Shown here piece after piece: positions 5,814 through 16,650 of a stretch of 64,000 nucleotides of DNA. Below the pieces are notes generated by a model. That model did no database searches and was not told the DNA's origin. It worked only from the letters and a program-made list of their open reading frames with translations. Both the position numbers and the translations under genes were made by a program. This DNA comes from Bacteroidia bacterium (GTDB lineage: Bacteria > Bacteroidota > Bacteroidia > J057): the NCBI GenBank assembly GCA_033391075.1, contig JAWPMV010000001.1, positions 5,332,001 to 5,396,000 on the forward strand, given 5' to 3'. Numbering within the stretch: position 1 is the first letter of the stretch; each line of letters begins with the position of its first letter.

Positions 5814-7616
5814 ATGAGAAATAGAAGCTTTTCTGTGTTTTTACTGATTTGTTTTTGGGGGATTAGTCTTCCCGCTTTTGCACAGGAGCTTGCATTACTC
5901 AAAAAAACGAAAGTCAGGAGTCTCCAGGATTTAGAACTTTTGCTTGAGCAGCATGTTCCTGAATTAGGAACAGAGGCTTCTCACTTAGAACTCCTACACT
6001 TCAAAGAAAGCCCTGCTGCTTATCACTATCTTTTTCGTCAGCTCTTTAAAGAAATACCGATAAACGGTTCAGAGCTATCTGTTCACATAGATAAGCAAGG
6101 CCAAATTCGAAGTTTCTCAAAACAACTATATTCCCTAAGAGGCCAGAAACTACCTTCCTTTAGCTTTCCAAAATCAAAGCTCCACACAAGCATGAGCAAT
6201 ATCTATGGGGCATATAGCAGCCAGATCGAAGCTCAGCTCTTATGGGATAAAGGGAAACTCATTCCGATTTACAGGCTTCACAATTTCAGCCACGGAAGTG
6301 TCTATCAATTTGAAGTATTGGTAGATGCTGAAAAAGGAAAGGAAATTAGCTGGAAAGACCTGGGCCTTTATCATACAGAAACTACTGGAGATACGACGGG
6401 ACGGGCGAGGGTATTCAAGCCCAATCCCTGTACAAAAGCCAATGTCAATTATGGGGACCTCTTCATTGACAGCATGGATTTTCATAAGACCATCTTTGAG
6501 TCTTTGATGGATAGTGTAGTACTGGAGGGTTTGTGCATCGAAGGAGACAGTTTTTTATTGAAAGGCCCTTATGTAGAAATCACAGACCTTGAGGCTCCGG
6601 CTGTTCCTAGTGTAAAAAGCATAGATGGAGATTTCTATTTCCGAAGAGATGAGTCGGGTTTTGAGCAGGTGATGGCCTATTACCATATCGACCGCATGCA
6701 GCGCTGGGTCAGAAGCATCGGCTTTGGCAACATTCAAACCATCCCCATAAAAGTAGATGCACAGGGAACCGAAAGCGACAACTCGGTAACTGTCATCAAA
6801 GACAGCGTCCCTAATATCCTTTTCGGGCGGGGGGGAGTTGATGATGCCGAAGACGCGGATGTGATCATTCATGAGTATGGTCATGCCTTGTCCTATTTTG
6901 CCAGTGGGGTTATCGCCAAAAGAGGAAGCAGAGAACGATTGGGCCTTGATGAAGGCATCGGAGATTATCTTGCAGCCATTTATAGCCAGGATCTTGGCTT
7001 TGACAATTATCGGATTCTCTTTAACTGGGATGGGCACAATGAATTTTGGCCAGGCAGACAGGTTTCGGCAAGTGATAATTATCCCCCGCAGGATTCATCC
7101 ATTCATGACTTTGGGGGAATATGGGCAAGCACGCTTCTGGATCTTCGCAACCAAATTGGTAAAGGACTTATTGATTCCCTCTTTTTTCAATCCTTATTTT
7201 TCAATGACCTGAATACAGATCTTCCCACGGCTGCTCAACATTTTCTGATGGCAGATAGCCTCTTGTTTGAGGGTGCACATACAGAAGCGATTAGTTTTAC
7301 CTTCTGTCAAAAGGGATTGCTTCCAGACCTAAATGGAGATTGTTCTGTGGTTTCCGTAGGGGAAAGTCTGAAAGATTTTCGGCCAAAAGTTTTTCCCAAT
7401 CCGAATTCAGGCATATTTTTCCTGGAGCTGAATCCTTCAACAAATCCTGAAGCCAGACTGGAAGTGTTCAATGAACTTGGGCAAATCATCTTTAGACAAG
7501 AAATAAATCAACGAAGAATGAAGGTAGACCTGGCCGGAAATTCTCCGGGTTTATATTTCCTGAAAATTCAGGCAACAAACGGCCAGATATACGCACAAAA
7601 AGTGATTCTGGAGTAA
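5814..7616 (+). CDS. T9SS-secreted zinc metallopeptidase (fungalysin/thermolysin-like, gluzincin)
   Basis: This 600-residue protein is counted from the ATG at 5814, chosen because it directly begins a clean signal peptide (FLLICFWGISLPAFAQ) and because a promoter element lies at 5743-5750. Residues ~25-190 look like an inhibitory propeptide. The active site is HEYGHA (His353, Glu354, His357), followed by LDEGIGDYLA with Glu380 as third zinc ligand. The spacing fits M36/M4-type gluzincins. The C-terminal ~80 residues are a T9SS type-A sorting domain (VFPNPNSG ... GLYFLKIQ ... KVILE). It should be exported by Sec, moved across the outer membrane by T9SS and released or anchored at the surface. 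The exact peptidase family is a motif-level assignment. Confidence 0.85.
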   Translation: MRNRSFSVFLLICFWGISLPAFAQELALLKKTKVRSLQDLELLLEQHVPELGTEASHLELLHFKESPAAYHYLFRQLFKEIPINGSELSVHIDKQGQIRSFSKQLYSLRGQKLPSFSFPKSKLHTSMSNIYGAYSSQIEAQLLWDKGKLIPIYRLHNFSHGSVYQFEVLVDAEKGKEISWKDLGLYHTETTGDTTGRARVFKPNPCTKANVNYGDLFIDSMDFHKTIFESLMDSVVLEGLCIEGDSFLLKGPYVEITDLEAPAVPSVKSIDGDFYFRRDESGFEQVMAYYHIDRMQRWVRSIGFGNIQTIPIKVDAQGTESDNSVTVIKDSVPNILFGRGGVDDAEDADVIIHEYGHALSYFASGVIAKRGSRERLGLDEGIGDYLAAIYSQDLGFDNYRILFNWDGHNEFWPGRQVSASDNYPPQDSSIHDFGGIWASTLLDLRNQIGKGLIDSLFFQSLFFNDLNTDLPTAAQHFLMADSLLFEGAHTEAISFTFCQKGLLPDLNGDCSVVSVGESLKDFRPKVFPNPNSGIFFLELNPSTNPEARLEVFNELGQIIFRQEINQRRMKVDLAGNSPGLYFLKIQATNGQIYAQKVILE

Positions 7617-7925
7617 AATAAGACAGCTCTTGGGAAATTCTTTCCCCCATTTTAGCGCATTGAAAAGGTCACAACTTATGTAAGGTTTCTCAAGAAAAAA
7701 CAATAAAACAGCCTTTTCCATCGTCAATTTTCCATAAATATATGTTTTTACCTGCCTAAAAAGTTCAAGAAGGGCAATTTTTACTTAATGTGCATTTGTA
7801 ACCCTTGCCTATGAATAGTAGGCCTTATGAGCTTAGATTTGGCTACTATTGTAAAAATAGAACACGATTTGTAAAACCATTTCATTATTTTCTTTCAACC
7901 CTTAATAACGGATAAGAAACCTGGC
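7617..7925. other. Intergenic region, 309 bases, no gene seen
   Basis: A short hairpin (GGGAAA 7632-7637 / TTTCCC 7641-7646) lies just after the metallopeptidase stop but lacks a T-tract. TAGATTTG at 7834-7841 fits a -7 element for the Nudix gene, though no well-spaced -33 TTTG is present. No small gene is evident. Confidence 0.4.
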
Positions 7926-8814: not shown

Positions 8815-9014
8815 TATACATTTTTAAGGCTCGTCATAAACCCCAATACGATTTGAAAAAAATCTGCCAATAAAATTTATTAAACAGGATAATTTCTTAA
8901 TTTTTGCATTACATTCAGTTAAAACCCCCGCAATAATGCCTGCCTGTCGTGAAATGGACAGGCCCAGTTAAAATTGTTGGTGAATTTAACGTCCTGGAAT
9001 ACGAAAATCTAATT

Positions 9015-11660
9015 ATGCGCACATTCAAAAAAGTTACAGTACTCATATGTTTGATACTGGCTGGCATTACTTCATCATTTTCGCAAAGCATTATCGTTTC
9101 TACAGAAGAAGATAGTGTGGTAGTGATAGGAGGTGATTATGCATCCAAAAGCTTCTATAATACCTTCTTTGGAGAACATTACAGAAGTGCATGGCTCGCC
9201 AAAATCAAGGTCCCTTATATTGACCTGAAAGAAGAGCAACTAACTCCCATCAAGCAAGGAGGAGGATTTCAAACAACTTCACTCAGACTTAGCCGACCCG
9301 ACGGTTCTCAATGGGTCTTTAGGTCTATCGCGAAAAATGTAGAAAAAATCTTGCCGGAAGATGTAAGGGGTACCCTGACCCAGGATATCCTTCAGGACCA
9401 AATTTCGGCAGCTCACCCTTATGCCGCCTGGGTAGTTCCCGGTTTGGCAAAAGCAGCTGGGGTAGCTCATGCGATTCCCACGATCGGGGTTGTAAAGGAT
9501 AGTCCCGAACTGGGAGAATTCAGAGAGACCTTCAAAAACCTGCTGGTTCTATATGAGCAAAGGCCTTACAAGGATATGACCAAATGGGACAATTACTACA
9601 ATGCCAAAGATGTAGAGAATACTCCTACAGTCATTGAAAAAACCCTTGAGACCCCGAAACACAGAGTTGATGAAAACAACCTGGTCAGGGCTCGCATATT
9701 TGACTTGCTTATTGGAGATATCGACCGCCATGATGACCAGTGGCGCTGGGGGAAATTTAAAGGTAAAAACGGAACGGTTTACAGACCTTATCCCAGAGAT
9801 CGCGACTTTGCATTTTTGAAAGCTGATGGGTTTTTCCCCTGGTTAGTTGACCGAAAATGGGGAAACAGAAGGGTCAGTAATTTTGACTATAAAACAGAGG
9901 ACCCCGTAGGATTAGCGAGTGGGGGTAATCCACTTGACAGGCATTGGATCACTCAATTGGAGTGGGATGACTGGTCGGCAATCGTAGACTCGATGAAAGC
10001 AGGTCTGACAGATAAGGCTATCGAAGATGCCTTTCTCCGCTGGCCCAAGGAATTGAGAGTCCTTCATGCTGACGAATTGATCGGAAAGCTGAAAGCCAGA
10101 AGGGATAAACTACACGAAACAGCTGAAATCTACTATAAAAGCCTCGCAGAATTTGTTGACATCAAAGGAACCAGCAAAAGGGATCTCTTTGAAATCAGAA
10201 GATTCAGCGATGATGAAACCATTGTCAAAGTCTATAAACTCAAGGAAAAGAGCGGCAAAAAAGATTATGAGTATTATTCTCGAACTTTTAAAACTTCGGA
10301 AACAAAAGAATTAAGAATTTTTGGTTTTGGAGCGAATGACGTCTTTGATATAGACGGAAAAGTCAACTCTGCCATTTTGATTAGAATCATTGGAGGAGAA
10401 GGAGATGATCAGGTCTTGAATAAGTCTATTGTGAGTGGGGGAAAGAAAACCATTATATACGATACCAAGGATGGCAATAGCTTTGATTTCGGTAAAGACA
10501 GTAAAAACCGCACCTCCAATGACACCATTTCTAATAATTTTAACAGAAAAGAAAGAAAATTCAATATAACAGCTCCTTTGATCACCTTCGGTTTCAATGC
10601 CGATGATGGAATTTTCCTTGGAGGAGGCTTTTCTTTTAAAAAATATGGATTCCGCAAAATACCATATGCAGAGAAACATACGCTCTCAGGTACTTTTGCT
10701 ATCGGAGCAGATGCTTTTATCCTCAAATATGGAGGAGAGTGGACGGACGTAGCCAAGAAGTGGGACTTTGTGATCGACGCAAGTGCATCCATTCCCGGAT
10801 ATAATAGCAATTTCTATGGCCTGGGAAATGATACTGAACGCCTGAGGACAGAAGAAAGGTTCTACCATGTCATGCGTTTCAACCAAATCCTATTTGAACC
10901 CGCATTGCGCTGGGCTGATGCAGAAAGCCCTCACCAAATTTCTATAGGGCCATATTTCCAATATTTCTCTGTACAGGAGGAGGCTGATGCAGAAGTTACT
11001 GACCGCTTTGTATTCAACGAAGCCACCGATATGAACCTGATTCCAGCAGAGGATTTTGAGGGAAAGCTGTTTGGGGGATTAAAACTCGGTTATCACTTCA
11101 ATACCACCGATCATGATTTCGCACCCAGAACCGGTGTCAAGATAAATGCAACCGCAACTTATTTTGCCAGGTTTTCAGAATCCAACTTCTATAACAATCG
11201 CAACTTCTTGAGATTGAGAGGAAATATCAGTGCATATCTTGATATGAAACCAATAGCCAGTGTGCTTGCAGTTAGAGTGGGAGGTGCCACCCTTGTTGGG
11301 GATGGATTTGAGTTCTACCAGGCAAATAGCCTCGGAGGATTGAGTATGTTGCTCAATGATCCTAACCTAAGAGGATATAGAAGAAACCGTTTTGCGGGTC
11401 GAAGTACATTATACCAAAATATTGAGCTCCGCACGGCCCTGGTCAAAGTCCCTAACTATGTTGCCACTTTCCGTTTGGGCATCATGGGTACCTTCGACAA
11501 TGGACGTGTTTGGTTGGATGGTGAAGATTCCAGTACCTGGCACCAGGGATATGGAGCAGGGATATGGATAGCTCCCCTCGATGCGATGGTTCTTGCGATC
11601 CAGATGACCTGGTCCGATGAAGACCAACTGCTCGCTTTCAACTACGGATTTAGATTCTAG
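9015..11660 (+). CDS. Omp85-like outer-membrane barrel protein with N-terminal kinase-like domain
   Basis: This 881-residue protein is counted from ATG 9015, which opens a clear signal peptide (VTVLICLILAGITSSFSQ); the in-frame GTG at 8949 only adds a non-signal extension. Residues ~80-300 carry a kinase-like pattern. There is a Gly-rich loop GGGFQTTSLRL at ~82, a strand WVFRSIAK with candidate Lys107, the loop FDLLIGDIDRHDDQW (Asp235, Asp237, Arg238, His239) and PRDRDFAF (Asp262, Asp264). These resemble the catalytic and metal-binding loops of Fam20C/HipA-like atypical kinases. Residues ~510-881 form a beta-barrel of the surface antigen/Omp85 type, with the L6 signature LRGY (Arg786-Tyr788) and a terminal Phe. 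No POTRA domains are seen. The barrel call is solid; the kinase-like call is inference from motifs. The next gene is a paralogue. Confidence 0.82.
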   Translation: MRTFKKVTVLICLILAGITSSFSQSIIVSTEEDSVVVIGGDYASKSFYNTFFGEHYRSAWLAKIKVPYIDLKEEQLTPIKQGGGFQTTSLRLSRPDGSQWVFRSIAKNVEKILPEDVRGTLTQDILQDQISAAHPYAAWVVPGLAKAAGVAHAIPTIGVVKDSPELGEFRETFKNLLVLYEQRPYKDMTKWDNYYNAKDVENTPTVIEKTLETPKHRVDENNLVRARIFDLLIGDIDRHDDQWRWGKFKGKNGTVYRPYPRDRDFAFLKADGFFPWLVDRKWGNRRVSNFDYKTEDPVGLASGGNPLDRHWITQLEWDDWSAIVDSMKAGLTDKAIEDAFLRWPKELRVLHADELIGKLKARRDKLHETAEIYYKSLAEFVDIKGTSKRDLFEIRRFSDDETIVKVYKLKEKSGKKDYEYYSRTFKTSETKELRIFGFGANDVFDIDGKVNSAILIRIIGGEGDDQVLNKSIVSGGKKTIIYDTKDGNSFDFGKDSKNRTSNDTISNNFNRKERKFNITAPLITFGFNADDGIFLGGGFSFKKYGFRKIPYAEKHTLSGTFAIGADAFILKYGGEWTDVAKKWDFVIDASASIPGYNSNFYGLGNDTERLRTEERFYHVMRFNQILFEPALRWADAESPHQISIGPYFQYFSVQEEADAEVTDRFVFNEATDMNLIPAEDFEGKLFGGLKLGYHFNTTDHDFAPRTGVKINATATYFARFSESNFYNNRNFLRLRGNISAYLDMKPIASVLAVRVGGATLVGDGFEFYQANSLGGLSMLLNDPNLRGYRRNRFAGRSTLYQNIELRTALVKVPNYVATFRLGIMGTFDNGRVWLDGEDSSTWHQGYGAGIWIAPLDAMVLAIQMTWSDEDQLLAFNYGFRF

Positions 11661-11667
11661 CAATAGA

Positions 11668-11690
11668 AAAAAGGGTTCTCCCTTTTTGCA
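11668..11690 (+). terminator. Short terminator-like hairpin between the two barrel genes
   Basis: AAAAAGGG (11668-11675), loop TTCT, CCCTTTTT (11680-11687). The stem is A/T-heavy, so termination may be partial and the next gene may still be reached by read-through. Confidence 0.65.
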
Positions 11691-11766
11691 TATAAAATTC
11701 TTCAAATTGGTGGCATAATAACCATCGATTTGAAGAATTTCATTCCCGCCCTGCCCTCCTTCACCT

Positions 11767-14700
11767 ATGAAAAAGAGTCTGTTAAGTATTTTCCTTCTCA
11801 CCCTATGTTGTGTAAAGATTTTTTCACAAGGAGAGAATCAGATACATCGCGTTTTCGTGATAGGAAATACTGCAGATATTCCGGATGAAGAACTCCTTAG
11901 CTACTCTGAGGCTCTTCATCAAATGCTCCTGAAGGTTAGCGATCCTTTTACCCTAATCTATACCGGGGATCTGAGCAGGCAGAAAAAATACGACCAAAAC
12001 GCCCTCAATTACGACTCCATCAGAATCAGCACCCTGCTTCGTGCAGCCCATTTCCCCAATAGCAGACAAATCCTTATTCCCGGAGATGGAGACTGGTTGA
12101 GTTCCGGAGAAGACGGCTGGAAGTATTTTCAGAAATTGGAAAAGATTATAGAAAAATCCTTTGATCGGGTAAACTGGATACCTGGAAAAGGATGTCCGGG
12201 CCCCAAAGATATCCTTTTGGATGATCATCTGATGCTCCTGGGAATAAATACCCAGTTTTGGAATCATCCCTACGAAAGACCGACGCCTACAGAAGCAGAA
12301 TGTGAGATTTCTCGGGATGGGGATTTCGTCGAAGCCCTGGAAGATAAAATAGATGATGCAGGAAATAAGAACATCATCATCGCAGGCCACTACCCTTTAC
12401 TCTCCAATGGCATCTATGGAGGACGCACTTCCTTAAAACGACATATTTTTCCCTTATCTGATAAGAAGAAAAACCTATTCATTCCCCTCCCCATCATCGG
12501 TAGCCTCTATGCCGCTTATCGTCAAAATATTGGCAATAAACTGGACCTGATCAACGAGCGTTTCAATCCCATGAGAGAAACCCTCCTCAATATCATGGCA
12601 GAGAATCGCAGCATGGTGTATTTGTCCGGTCATGAAAAGAACATCCAGATTCTGAAATTCAAAGACAATTTTTTCATCAATAGTGGTTCTGCCTATGAAA
12701 GTAGTTTTGCGAGAAAAGACCCCAAATCTCTGCTGATTTCCAAGGTTCCCGGTTTACTTGAATTGAGATATTATAAAGACGGAAGGGTAAATAGCCAGAT
12801 ATACCGCTATGGAGATAATGGTTTTCAGACAATCAGCCCCCTCAACCTGCTCAACAGTCCTTGTGAAGAAGGACCTCAATTGGAGCTGGAGAATGTAAAT
12901 CTCGCCTATGTCCCTTGCCAGGAACAAGTACCTTTAAATCTTTTCGACTTCCCATTTAGCGGCATATGTACTGCTCAGGGAGGAAAAGAATACCAGGCAA
13001 GTGGGCTGAAACAAGTATTTCTGGGGAAACTTTATCGGGACACCTGGACAAGGAGCATTATGGCTCCCTTTCTGTCTTTAGGAGAAGTCCATGGAGGATT
13101 GAATGTCCTGGAAAGAGGAGGAGGTATCCAGACCCAGTCTCTCAAGTTTCTTGCTGAGAACGGTAGAGAATATGTCTTTCGTTCCACCAATAAAAACCCT
13201 ACCCGAGCTCTGCCCCTGGAGTTTCGAACAAATTTCTTTGTCTCCCTGGTAAAACAGGCAACAGCTACCCAGCATCCCTATGGAGCGCTGGCTGTAGACA
13301 AATTGCTCAACCATACTGACATCCTCCACGTTCATCCCGAACTCTTCCTCATGCCCGATGATCCCCGTCTGGGTCCCTTCCGGCAAGAGTTTGCAGGTCT
13401 ACTCGGTATGCTGGAAGAAAAGCCCAAAGCTGGCCCCAAAATTCCCTCAAGCTTTGATGCCGATGATATTGTAAGGAGTTATGAACTCTTTAAACTCATG
13501 TATGAGCATCACAACCATCGGATAGATGTAAACTCTTTTTTGAAATCCCGAATTTTTGATATTTGGATTGGAGATCGAGGTAGGCATGAGGACAACTTTA
13601 CCTGGGCCATGTTCAAACAAGGGGAGATGTCCATTTTCAAACCGATTCCCAGAGATCGGGATCATGCATTCAGCATCCTCGATGGCGTACTGCCCTGGTT
13701 GATCGACAGGCCCTGGGCCCTGCCCTTTTTTGAAGATTTTGACTACGAAATCAAAGACCTCAAAAGTCTCAACTACTCTGCCAGACATCTGGATCGCTTT
13801 ATTTTGGGAGCAGCTGCAAAAAAAGACTGGGAGATTCTTTGTCAGGAACTCAAAGAAACCTTTGACGAAGAAAAGATTACGGAAGCCATACTCTCCATGC
13901 CTCCAGAGATCTTTGCTATCTCCGGACAGGAAATCATCGCCAAGCTTCAATCCCGCCTCAAAAACATCGACAGTTTTGTCCTCCAATATTATCAGGTTCT
14001 TGCCAAAGAAGTCGACATCATAGGTTCTAATGAGCGGGAATATTTTGAAGTAATCCGAAATCCCGACGGCAGTGTTCAAGTTAAGATGTACGATCTACTT
14101 TCTTTCGAGGAGAGAACGAGGGGCCAAAAGCTCTTTTTCGAGCGCACTTTTTATCCGGAAGAAACCCAGGAAATCAGGCTATATGGACTGGGGAGTAAGG
14201 ACATTATCTTCATTCATGGGGAATCAAAGAACTCCATCAAGGTACGTGCGCTGGGAGGTGATGGAGAAGACCAAATCATAGACCAATCCAAAGTCAGAGG
14301 CTTGGGCAAGAAGACCCTGGTTTATGAGAAAAACCACCGTAGCATACTTGAACTGGGTAAAGAAGCTCGACAATTGAAGCCCAGAGAAGCCATGCTTTAT
14401 GATTATCGCAGGAAAGCTTTCGCCTACCATAGCTATTATCCTGTACCTGTAGTCTCCTACTCTTCGGCAGAAGGCTTAAAAGGAGGATGGGGCTATCTCT
14501 TTACCCGTCGTTCTTTTGGGAAAGAAGATTATGCACACAAACATTTGATTTCTGCATATATCTCTACCCAAAATAACTTTGGCATAAACTATAGCAGCAA
14601 ATTTCGACAAGTATTTAGAGAGTGGGATCTTCAACTCGCCTCAGAATGGGCAAGACCTGATAGGTATAACAATTTCTTTGGACTGGGTAATGAGACCGTC

Positions 14701-15471
14701 CTCAATGACTCACTCTTTGTCGCCAATTTTTACCGCAGTCGAAACCAGACCTTCAATATGAGTGTAGGCCTGCACAGGAGTTTTTGGAGAAAAAGCCTCT
14801 TCAGTTTTGACCTAAGGCTGGAGAAAAATGACAGACAGGAGATAGAGAATAATATTCTTTCACTCGATAAATTTGAGAATCTATTGGGTACTGATGACCT
14901 AATCATTCTTCAAGCTCAGGCAGCCTTAAATCTCGACCTTCGGGATCACGATATTTTACCGGAAAGGGGCATGCAATTGTATCTCTCTCACAAAAATGGC
15001 TACATCCATACTCAGAAAAGTAATTATGGCCTTTCAGAAGGATTTCTCGCCTGGTATGGAACCAATCATAGTATTAATAATCCTCTTACCCTGGGCATCA
15101 AGATCGGAGCGGGAGATGGCTATGGAGAAATTCCATTCTACAATAAATTTGTGCTGGGTCAAAGGGAAAACCTTCACGGATTTCGGAGAAGGAGGTTTAC
15201 CGGAGATGCAATGGCGTATTTAAATTCAGAAGTACGTTTAAAACTGGGGCAGGGAAAGGCACTTATTCCCGTAACCTATGGACTAACTGCTTTTTTTGAC
15301 CAGGGTCGTGTATTTCTGGATGGTGAGGATTCCCAAAAGTGGCATAAAGGATATGGCATTGGCATGTACATCATTCCTGCCAGCCGCAAACTCACCCTGA
15401 ATATGGCCTTCGGATTCTCAGAAGAATCAAAAGCTCTATTCCTCTTTAATCTAGGCTCCTTTCTTCGCTAG
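11767..15471 (+). CDS. Fusion: degenerate calcineurin-like phosphoesterase + kinase-like domain + outer-membrane barrel
   Basis: A 1234-residue protein with signal peptide LLSIFLLTLCCVKIFSQ. Residues ~26-345 match the stand-alone phosphoesterase encoded just downstream (shared HIFPL, IPLP..GS.Y), but metal ligands are altered. Motif I has Asn34 where the neighbour has Asp. GNHDW is GDGDW (106-110). GHEH is GHEK (288-291). Asp68 and His208 remain. Residues ~450-740 match the kinase-like region of the upstream paralogue: GGGIQTQSL, VFRSTNK (Lys476), IGDRGRHEDN (Asp603, Gly605 replacing Asp) and PRDRDHAF (Asp630, Asp632). Residues ~890-1234 form the barrel; the L6 signature reads LHGF (1137-1139) instead of LRGY. 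Both enzymatic parts therefore look eroded, suggesting a regulatory or binding role. Its end is 3 bases from the convergent phosphoesterase gene. Confidence 0.85.
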   Translation: MKKSLLSIFLLTLCCVKIFSQGENQIHRVFVIGNTADIPDEELLSYSEALHQMLLKVSDPFTLIYTGDLSRQKKYDQNALNYDSIRISTLLRAAHFPNSRQILIPGDGDWLSSGEDGWKYFQKLEKIIEKSFDRVNWIPGKGCPGPKDILLDDHLMLLGINTQFWNHPYERPTPTEAECEISRDGDFVEALEDKIDDAGNKNIIIAGHYPLLSNGIYGGRTSLKRHIFPLSDKKKNLFIPLPIIGSLYAAYRQNIGNKLDLINERFNPMRETLLNIMAENRSMVYLSGHEKNIQILKFKDNFFINSGSAYESSFARKDPKSLLISKVPGLLELRYYKDGRVNSQIYRYGDNGFQTISPLNLLNSPCEEGPQLELENVNLAYVPCQEQVPLNLFDFPFSGICTAQGGKEYQASGLKQVFLGKLYRDTWTRSIMAPFLSLGEVHGGLNVLERGGGIQTQSLKFLAENGREYVFRSTNKNPTRALPLEFRTNFFVSLVKQATATQHPYGALAVDKLLNHTDILHVHPELFLMPDDPRLGPFRQEFAGLLGMLEEKPKAGPKIPSSFDADDIVRSYELFKLMYEHHNHRIDVNSFLKSRIFDIWIGDRGRHEDNFTWAMFKQGEMSIFKPIPRDRDHAFSILDGVLPWLIDRPWALPFFEDFDYEIKDLKSLNYSARHLDRFILGAAAKKDWEILCQELKETFDEEKITEAILSMPPEIFAISGQEIIAKLQSRLKNIDSFVLQYYQVLAKEVDIIGSNEREYFEVIRNPDGSVQVKMYDLLSFEERTRGQKLFFERTFYPEETQEIRLYGLGSKDIIFIHGESKNSIKVRALGGDGEDQIIDQSKVRGLGKKTLVYEKNHRSILELGKEARQLKPREAMLYDYRRKAFAYHSYYPVPVVSYSSAEGLKGGWGYLFTRRSFGKEDYAHKHLISAYISTQNNFGINYSSKFRQVFREWDLQLASEWARPDRYNNFFGLGNETVLNDSLFVANFYRSRNQTFNMSVGLHRSFWRKSLFSFDLRLEKNDRQEIENNILSLDKFENLLGTDDLIILQAQAALNLDLRDHDILPERGMQLYLSHKNGYIHTQKSNYGLSEGFLAWYGTNHSINNPLTLGIKIGAGDGYGEIPFYNKFVLGQRENLHGFRRRRFTGDAMAYLNSEVRLKLGQGKALIPVTYGLTAFFDQGRVFLDGEDSQKWHKGYGIGMYIIPASRKLTLNMAFGFSEESKALFLFNLGSFLR

Positions 15472-15474
15472 CGC

Positions 15475-16650
15475 TTAGTGATTCGGACCGTATAGCTTTT
15501 CCCGAAACACCACAACTCCCTCTTTATTTTCTCCCAGCGGTTCCCAGTACTCTACCCAGGCCGAACCATCTGTATAAAAATTCACTCGGGCATAACCTCT
15601 TTCCATGTGCACAAAAGCAGCCCCTTTGCCTGTTCTCCCATAACTCACTTTTGCACCTGTTCCACTAAGAATATGATGCACATTTTTGACTTTATTGTAT
15701 TGGAGAATGTGTTCGTGTCCGGCCGAAATCACAACATTCTTTTCACCCGAAACCGCTTCCATCATTGCAGCTTTCAATTCCTGATAGGGTTCGCCGGATA
15801 AGTCTTCAGGTGAAATCCCTGATTTTCGTGCACCAACATAGATAGAACCCAGTACCGGCAAAGGGATATAGAGATTGTCTACCAAAGCTGTGAGAGGAAA
15901 AATGTGATCCCAAAAGCGATACCTCCCACCATGATTCCCATTGGTAAAAAAGGGATGATGTTGGGTAATCACGATATGTTTATCCTGATTTTCTGCGACC
16001 ACCTCTTTTAACGCCTGGATAAAGCCTTCTTTGGTGTAGGCTTTACACCCATCTTCTGCAGCAATCGGTTTTTCATATTTATGCAACCACCACTCCGTAT
16101 CCACCAATACCAAAGCTAAATTGGGATGGGGATGGATAACCACAGGACCGGGGCATCCATTTTGCGGATAAAAGGAAGTATCCGAATCCATATAGGTACG
16201 TACATAATCAGCCTGCCTTTGGATCCCTTCCAATCCCCCTTCTCCCTGATCATTCCAATCATGATTTCCGGGAATAAATACTGACCATGCAGCCGCTCCT
16301 TTGACGGCATCCATTTGACCTTCCAATCTCTTTTCCGATTGCTTGCGCAATTTATGCCCCTCTTCCGGCAGGCCAGCCGGGTAAATATTGTCCCCCATAA
16401 AGACGACCGCATTTCCGGGATTATTGGCTTCATCCAACTGCTTGCGAAGCATTGTCATCACCTTATCTCCCGTATAAACTTTGCCTGCATCCCCTACCAG
16501 AAATACAGAATGTTCTATTTCTGATTCAGGAGGAGCCGCTTTGTTCTTCCAATCTGCATAAGATTCATCATACCAGGGCTTCCTGGCCGCGCAGGAAACA
16601 ATAAATAGAGAAAGAAATAAAAGAGATAATAGGTTTATGGTGGACTTCAT
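15475..16650 (-). CDS. Calcineurin-like metallophosphoesterase, lipoprotein
   Basis: This 391-residue protein is read from ATG 16650, which gives a 20-residue lipoprotein signal with lipobox IVSC; in-frame ATGs at 16671 and 16734 are alternatives. All phosphoesterase motifs are present: LVGDAG (Asp54), FMGDN (Asp87), IPGNHDW (Asn129, His130), QHHPFF and AGHEHIL. Together they build a two-metal site. Substrate is unknown: the family includes phosphoprotein, nucleotide and phospholipid phosphatases. It is homologous to the N-terminal domain of the convergent barrel fusion gene, and unlike that domain it keeps the metal ligands. Lipidation would place it on the periplasmic or outer face of the envelope, close to the barrel proteins. 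Confidence 0.88.
   Translation of the reverse strand: MKSTINLLSLLFLSLFIVSCAARKPWYDESYADWKNKAAPPESEIEHSVFLVGDAGKVYTGDKVMTMLRKQLDEANNPGNAVVFMGDNIYPAGLPEEGHKLRKQSEKRLEGQMDAVKGAAAWSVFIPGNHDWNDQGEGGLEGIQRQADYVRTYMDSDTSFYPQNGCPGPVVIHPHPNLALVLVDTEWWLHKYEKPIAAEDGCKAYTKEGFIQALKEVVAENQDKHIVITQHHPFFTNGNHGGRYRFWDHIFPLTALVDNLYIPLPVLGSIYVGARKSGISPEDLSGEPYQELKAAMMEAVSGEKNVVISAGHEHILQYNKVKNVHHILSGTGAKVSYGRTGKGAAFVHMERGYARVNFYTDGSAWVEYWEPLGENKEGVVVFREKLYGPNH

Follow-up and report, generated by a model that had tools for sequence, protein, structure and literature searches.

Analysis of a 64,000-nucleotide stretch from a Bacteroidia bacterium (assembly GCA_033391075.1, contig JAWPMV010000001.1; G000:C1:5332001-5396000 in our numbering, hereafter the window) revealed three adjacent genes, P0001, P0002 and P0003 (Table 1), which point to a Bacteroidota-wide family of proteins in which a kinase-fold domain, termed KIN here, would be anchored in the outer membrane through a BamA/TamA-like barrel and paired with a calcineurin-like phosphoesterase (MPE), the two phosphorylating and dephosphorylating. 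We give this reading an even chance of being right. The fold, the barrel, the conservation, the KIN-MPE fusion, their co-occurrence and the gene neighbourhood were each established by computation. P0001 and P0002 are adjacent paralogues (29% identity over 859 residues, E 1e-123) with a conserved domain ahead of an Omp85 barrel, as had been proposed in the original prediction, which was made from the letters of the window. P0003 is convergent with P0002, their stop codons lying 3 bases apart, and, again as proposed, this lipoprotein phosphoesterase is homologous through its residues 109-363 to the extra N-terminal domain of P0002 (residues 86-339; 30%, E 6e-42).

The loops of KIN had been likened to those of Fam20C- and HipA-type kinases, and the predicted fold, on which the idea could have foundered, is indeed a kinase fold. 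An AlphaFold (AF2) model of P0001 residues 25-490, made with 85 sequences, reached a predicted local distance difference test (pLDDT) of 92.8 and a predicted template modelling score (pTM) of 0.92. Foldseek comparison of this model with the PDB placed CtkA (3akj) first (E 1.8e-6), followed by PI4KII, including PI4KIIalpha, then HipA, HipT and PI3K, with Fam20C (5yh0, E 4.7e-4) and CotH (5jd9, E 6.2e-4) lower in the list. In VIA-align the top match was PI4KIIbeta (Z 15.3, 258 aligned residues, root-mean-square deviation (rmsd) 4.5), and CotH (Z 14.0, 243 residues, rmsd 4.1), CtkA (Z 13.3, 233 residues, rmsd 4.6) and HipA (Z 11.4) were also recovered; all 50 matches listed bear titles of kinases or of HipA, if the entries titled 'MDT protein' are taken to be HipA. 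By its modelled fold, KIN very likely belongs to the HipA/CtkA/PI4KII/CotH/Fam20C branch of kinases. Since PI4KII leads the VIA-align list, 1.3 Z units above CotH, we also considered a PI4K-like lipid or envelope-glycan kinase/phosphatase editing the phosphates of outer-membrane lipids or lipid A, not of proteins. PAP2 phosphatase genes near some loci and the rise in phospholipid levels on loss of PlpD, reported in passages of PMC11116518, would suit such an activity, but CotH and CtkA, which are protein kinases, have similar Z values, and the 17 neighbour clusters described below include no named lipid-synthesis enzyme bar one short-chain dehydrogenase of unassigned role, so that we regard this alternative as unlikely.

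Conservation of KIN exceeds chance. Relatives were collected as 80 loci from a species-level genome collection, which are the best of at least 580 relatives and not a random sample; 84 KIN proteins from these loci, together with P0001, P0002 and a third protein from contig C3 of the window genome, make up a set of 87. Alignment A1 covers 31 of 33 loci (L004 repeats L001, and L027 was omitted), whereas the broken-frame L078 was left out of the 85- and 81-sequence alignments (A2 and A3), the latter also excluding four barrel-less KIN proteins. Invariant columns numbered 28 among 31 sequences and 22 among 85. The motifs of P0001 are GGG (82-84), R103/K107, E181, IGDIDRHDDQW (233-243) and PRDRD (260-264), with D235-x-D237-R-H239 and D262-R-D264 as the conserved set, and the D-R-D of PRDRD is invariant across the 85 sequences. 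P0002 carries IGDRGRH from residue 601 and PRDRD from residue 628; the Gly-rich, IGD-x-(D/G)-RH and PRDRD loops are thus present in both paralogues as first described. Both D-x-D-R-H and DRD are intact in 80 of the 87 proteins, and D237 is replaced by Gly or Ser in the other seven (P0002, L070, L081, L086, L099, L109 and L110). The P0001 segment IGDIDRHDDQWRW aligns gap-free with LLGNFDRHNGNW of CtkA (E 0.062 for the whole match), the likeness being a G-x-[D/N]-x-D-R-H-type loop, followed in CtkA by [N/Q]-W. That D237 is the catalytic Asp is our assumption, which leans on the biochemistry of CtkA and on this weak alignment. Judged from the alignments, the conserved residues are of the kind expected for this kinase branch.

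P0001 and P0002 are very likely outer-membrane barrel proteins. The full-length model of P0001 (pLDDT 89.4) contains 16 barrel strands at model residues 494-853, which match BamA (8xnb, Z 25.5) and TamA (4n74, Z 25.2), as they also do in Foldseek. NCBIfam Omp85 is matched by both proteins under the model's own cut-off (NF047779, E 6.4e-26 for P0001), while Pfam supports Omp85 (PF01103) for P0002 only. The L6 motif of Omp85 proteins is of the (V/I/L)RG(F/Y) type; it reads LRGYRRNRF in P0001, has the variant form LHGFRRRRF in P0002, and follows the consensus NLRGxRxxRF in 81 KIN-barrel sequences. The linker between KIN and the barrel (model residues 356-490) is made of strands except for a short helix at 480-483, and no POTRA is obvious in the full-length model. 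With a barrel nearest BamA/TamA and no visible POTRA order ahead of it, the proteins might instead be BamA/TamA-like assembly or secretion factors in which KIN is a non-catalytic binding domain replacing POTRA; however, few positions of the protein are better conserved than the catalytic-type residues, barrel-less KIN proteins exist, and KIN is fused to a phosphatase-type domain, not to a chaperone, and we consider this alternative distinctly improbable. The barrel-less KIN proteins are of about 520-580 residues and occur in L047:4669-6414:-, L049:4676-6310:-, L101:9785-11398:+, G166 (L148) and G072 (L157), with two or three genes in tandem in G166 and G072.

The link of KIN and its barrel to a phosphoesterase extends well beyond the window. 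Among 296 genomes sampled across Bacteroidota, KIN was found in 112 and the P0003-family MPE, at a threshold of E<=1e-10, in 79; both were present in 75, KIN alone in 37, MPE alone in four and neither in 180 (Fisher p 1e-36, the genomes not being independent). In 67 of the 87 KIN proteins, MPE, KIN and barrel form a single chain, MPE homology having been checked for all 65 such proteins from the loci. This count is a lower bound: L037, with an interrupted frame, and L105, at a contig edge, hold part of an MPE, the start of L039 coincides with the edge of a contig, and the frame of L078 is broken. Co-occurrence of the phosphoesterase with these barrels in other genomes, another point at which the idea was open to refutation, was therefore upheld, mostly within one chain. 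Because of this fusion, a functional link between kinase, phosphatase and barrel is likely. The metal-binding set of the fused MPE is intact in 42 of 67 proteins and altered in 25. Since the MPE is so often degenerate while KIN is nearly always intact (80/87), strict on/off pairing does not hold throughout; of the phosphorylation-dephosphorylation pair originally envisaged, the kinase fold and the co-occurrence with MPE, mostly as a fusion, held, and P0002 is probably altered beyond catalysis in both domains. The same figures bear on phosphate scavenging, in which MPE would be the working part and KIN would merely bind organic phosphates: this would accord with phosphate-chemistry neighbours such as PPK1, PAP2 and the SdiA-regulated/phytase-like propeller, but it predicts the opposite of an intact KIN beside an MPE that is degenerate or, elsewhere, absent, and we find it very unlikely. 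At locus L155 (genome G152), where the KIN-barrel is on another contig, PPK1 is 2.7 kb away from a stand-alone MPE, and PycTM and HD genes are about 5 kb away from it; at L163:1-1985 (G280) MPE and KIN occupy adjacent, slightly overlapping frames at a contig end, which could reflect a frameshift or a module in two parts. Our gene caller did not predict the P0003 homologue of L148 (G166), which was seen in the MPE family search only.

The window genome, of 9.49 Mb in 5 contigs, holds three KIN-barrel paralogues. Pfam recognises Omp85 in P0002 and Metallophos (PF00149) in P0003, the latter at 24.1 bits (cut-off 21.5) and with the metal set DDNNHDHHH. The N-terminal domain of P0002 was not matched by PF00149 in Pfam, and its metal set reads NDLDGDHHK; G605 of the same protein replaces the equivalent of P0001 D237, leaving it altered at both active sites. 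The third paralogue, G000:C3:80586-84323 on another contig, is a fused MPE-KIN-barrel with both sites intact. In the tree, P0001 groups with L034, which is not fused (support 1.0), and with L039, whose start is cut off (0.897), and P0002 groups, again with support 1.0, with L081, L086, L109 and L110, each of which has changes at both sites; deeper branches are poorly supported. P0002, altered like its sister group, is probably a double pseudoenzyme, and on this basis the window likely presents a split version of the system: an intact KIN-barrel protein, P0001, and an intact separate MPE, P0003, plus the likely pseudoenzyme. Signal peptides were called by eye, with no predictor, as was the lipobox of P0003 (...FIVSC-AARK), and an upstream GTG at 8949 is a possible alternative start of P0001. 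Weak PADLOC matches to PDC-M03A were seen for P0001 (E 0.0013) and P0002 (E 0.0012).

Genes around KIN add a further association. Neighbour families were selected after inspection, as 17 clusters present in at least five of the 80 loci and named from Pfam matches of their representatives, and among them the 296-genome adjacency test was run for PycTM only. An HD-PycTM cluster occurs in 40 of the 80 loci; in 22 of these 40 it is no more than 200 bases away from the KIN gene, in 36 no more than 2 kb, and in 27 it is upstream and divergent. PycTM without HD was found in seven of the 80 loci. Where at least 7 kb was available on both flanks, 37 of 52 loci held an HD-PycTM or PycTM gene. The SdiA-regulated/phytase-like beta-propeller is found in 29 of the 80 loci, class III cyclase in 20, PPK1 in 17, SixA-like phosphatase in seven and PAP2 in six. 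Across the 296 genomes, PycTM (PF18967) occurs in 109, in 95 of them together with KIN (Fisher p 1e-43). The two lie within 10 kb in 75 of these 95 genomes, where by our own estimate, assuming single copies in 4 Mb, about 0.5 would be expected by chance, and within 20 kb in 80; in four they share a contig at a greater distance, and in 11 they are on different contigs. Counted by genus (140 in all), the two families are present in 62 and 64 genera, with 56 in common (p 3e-23), and 41 of the 55 genera holding both in one genome have at least one genome with a spacing of 10 kb or less. Against a neighbourhood link stand the 24 of 80 loci that hold none of six named families (HD-PycTM, PycTM without HD, propeller, class III cyclase, PPK1 and SixA-like phosphatase), some being cut by contig ends, and the 17 genomes with KIN alone and 14 with PycTM alone. 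The window genome is itself an exception, its nearest PycTM gene being 1.49 Mb away; it has two PPK1 genes, of which the one among the matches listed lies some 105 kb away from P0003, at C1:5453305. Phylum-wide co-occurrence is uninformative for PPK1, present in 267 of 296 genomes, and adjacency in the 80 loci was used instead.

The nucleotide- and polyphosphate-related neighbours, PPK1 and class III cyclase, make ligands of these kinds plausible and bring in a further alternative, namely that the KIN fold serves another chemistry (AMPylation or other nucleoside monophosphate transfer) or senses nucleotides or polyphosphate, with MPE as a phosphodiesterase that reverses the reaction or destroys the ligand. 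Kinase folds with other activities exist, SelO being an example, some MPEs are phosphodiesterases, and the presence of Arg where the strand normally has Lys may point to a changed use of nucleotides. Yet the Asp, His and metal motifs of KIN are of the HipA/CtkA branch type, whose members are to our knowledge protein or lipid kinases, and nothing in them is specific to AMPylation; we hold this alternative to be doubtful. Class III cyclase was sought in 78 of the 112 KIN genomes; among the matches listed, the window genome has 37 and the next highest 11. Some KIN loci hold both a class III cyclase and PycTM, with PADLOC matches to PycC and PycTM; in PADLOC, three neighbours of PycTM proteins score as PycC, and two PycTM proteins tested score as PycTM. 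Proteins of PF18967, the 'Pycsar effector' family, are often fused to HD; members of the family lie at L034:5575-6783 and at L054:6704-7324 and 7306-7920. Because PF18967 genes are usually single-copy (80 of the 95 genomes with KIN) and near a KIN-barrel gene in most of these 95, the defence annotation of these KIN-adjacent proteins may be misleading.

A second arrangement came from the genomes with MPE alone. In three of these four (G081, G151 and G250, not G002), MPE lies beside separate genes for Omp85, for a 558-residue lipoprotein family that we call KIN2, and for a TLC-type ATP/ADP transporter with HEAT repeats. KIN2 (for example L151:10518-12191:-) was found in seven of 296 genomes and shows, by eye, the kinase-like motifs GANSGFF, NDTDRRDANT and QDFGNT, altered in the G147 member. 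Its identity as a kinase is unconfirmed: hhalign of KIN against a four-sequence KIN2 profile gave a probability of 0.7%, and searches of Pfam and, with one member, of the PDB returned nothing. G195, G199 and a second locus of G286 combine transporter, barrel and KIN2 with no recognised MPE alongside, and G147 has barrel and KIN2. In G286 (L177), a gap of 76 bases separates the end of a TLC gene (PF03219, E 3.8e-26) from a fused MPE-KIN-barrel gene downstream on the same strand. TLC genes stand beside Omp85 and KIN2, with or without MPE, or beside the fused MPE-KIN-barrel at L149, L150, L151, L177, L178, L179 and L184. TLC occurs in 12 of the 296 genomes and is adjacent to such a module in six, which come from two genera only (g77 and g97); in the other six, no module was recognised within the 20 kb examined. 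This adjacency suggests a possible ATP route to a periplasmic kinase, though most KIN genomes are without TLC.

In the mechanism that we favour, the enzymatic domains KIN and MPE would face the periplasm, by analogy with PlpD; KIN would phosphorylate an acceptor in the outer membrane or the periplasm, MPE would remove or edit this phosphate, and the Omp85 barrel would anchor and position the site. In the window genome, P0001 and P0003 would act as a split working pair, the contig-C3 protein as the fused version and P0002 as a pseudoenzyme paralogue. Here we infer export to the periplasm, catalysis, the phosphate donor, a shared substrate and a regulatory role; that the periplasm houses a catalytic kinase and a phosphatase to match it has about even odds. 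Several points weigh against such a pair. The periplasm is not normally expected to hold ATP, and an ATP/ADP-type transporter occurs in 12 of 296 genomes only. None of the 17 Pfam families matched by any of 31 KIN members is a kinase, and P0001 is without any Pfam match at E<=10. By sequence profile the link to kinases is weak: with 31 sequences the best PDB profile match was CtkA, at E 0.062, and with 85 sequences this match was lost and nothing reached E<=10. The strand position that is usually Lys is R103, an invariant Arg, so that the 'strand Lys' first described was only approximately right, an invariant Lys, K107, following four residues on. To these are added the degenerate MPE domains in 25 of 67 fused proteins and the 37 KIN genomes without a P0003-family MPE. 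Sequence-only proof of kinase identity, sought in Pfam, NCBIfam and PDB profiles, was insufficient, and it is the predicted structure alone that decides. A wider and improbable extension would be trans-envelope phospho-signalling, in which an outer-membrane-anchored periplasmic MPE-KIN-Omp85 module would receive its donor across the inner membrane, through the ATP/ADP-type transporter in some lineages or as PPK1 polyphosphate in others, and would be coupled to inner-membrane HD-PycTM and class III cyclase, turning the state of the outer membrane into cyclic-nucleotide signalling.

Table 1. Features of the three genes in the window (positions are those of the window)
Feature	Position	Strand	Description
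P0001	9015-11660	+	881 residues; signal peptide, KIN, strand-rich linker, predicted 16-strand Omp85 barrel
P0001 KIN domain	9210-10145	+	residues 66-377, portion aligning to PI4KII
P0001 glycine-rich loop GGG	9258-9266	+	residues 82-84, invariant
P0001 catalytic-loop motif IGDIDRHDDQWRW	9711-9749	+	residues 233-245; D237 presumed catalytic Asp
P0001 PRDRD	9792-9806	+	residues 260-264; presumed metal-binding
P0001 Omp85-type barrel	10566-11645	+	residues 518-877; L6-type motif LRGYRRNRF
P0002	11767-15471	+	1234 residues; signal peptide, degenerate MPE, altered KIN, Omp85 barrel
P0002 N-terminal phosphoesterase-like domain	11848-12846	+	about residues 28-360; some metal residues lost
P0002 KIN domain	13063-14001	+	about residues 433-745; G605 at 13579-13581
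P0002 Omp85 barrel	14569-15426	+	PF01103, E 7.3e-14
P0003	15475-16650	-	lipoprotein calcineurin-like phosphoesterase (MPE), full metal-binding set

If the favoured mechanism is true, more than one third of the sampled Bacteroidota genomes would carry out regulated phosphorylation in a compartment thought to be free of ATP. It would also help to account for a known but uncharacterised Omp85 subfamily, and would place HD-PycTM proteins, at present listed under a phage-defence name, in a physiological context.

Among known systems, CtkA and the HipA/HipT kinases are the best Foldseek matches to KIN, and CtkA shares the catalytic-loop pattern; they differ in being soluble proteins with neither barrel nor phosphoesterase, and their sequence similarity to KIN is not significant (E 0.062 for CtkA with the 31-sequence profile, no match with the 85-sequence profile). 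PI4KII and CotH resemble KIN at VIA-align Z of 14-15 and Fam20C at a Foldseek E of 4.7e-4, but these are eukaryotic or spore proteins with no tie to the outer membrane, Fam20C being described in abstracts as a Golgi kinase and CotH as acting on the spore coat. A metallophosphoesterase of Riemerella (Niu et al. 2021, as entered in a review table) is likewise exported by a member of the Bacteroidota and listed as a phosphatase; it differs in being listed as a type IX secretion effector, and the likeness is drawn from the table entry only. Term searches of the indexed text gave no match for kinase, phosphatase or metallophosph in a Bacteroidota BAM structure paper (PMC12611786), and none for Omp85, metallophosph, BamA or surface antigen in a Bacteroidota phosphate-starvation study (PMC8115612). 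Among the matches listed from the open-access literature, with subscription papers and preprints mostly outside, no kinase-fold Omp85 protein is described. PlpD, according to passages of PMC11116518, likewise joins an enzyme domain, shown there to be periplasmic, to an Omp85 barrel of 16 strands, but it combines a patatin-like lipase with POTRA and has neither kinase fold nor phosphoesterase. Closest of all is the 'Metallo' Omp85 subfamily with an N-terminal PF00149, described together with a related 'noNterm' subfamily by Heinz and Lithgow 2014 (PMC4104836), where PF00149 is labelled a metalloprotease domain and where the main text has no word starting with 'kinase' or 'phosph'. As presented in that text, it shares PF00149 and the barrel with our fused form and probably comprises the same proteins, accessions being unmatched, and its middle kinase-fold domain went unrecognised. 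The original prediction had supposed the system to be undescribed; the MPE-Omp85 architecture has in fact been in print since 2014 in PMC4104836, and the parts that look new are the kinase-fold domain and its gene neighbourhood only.

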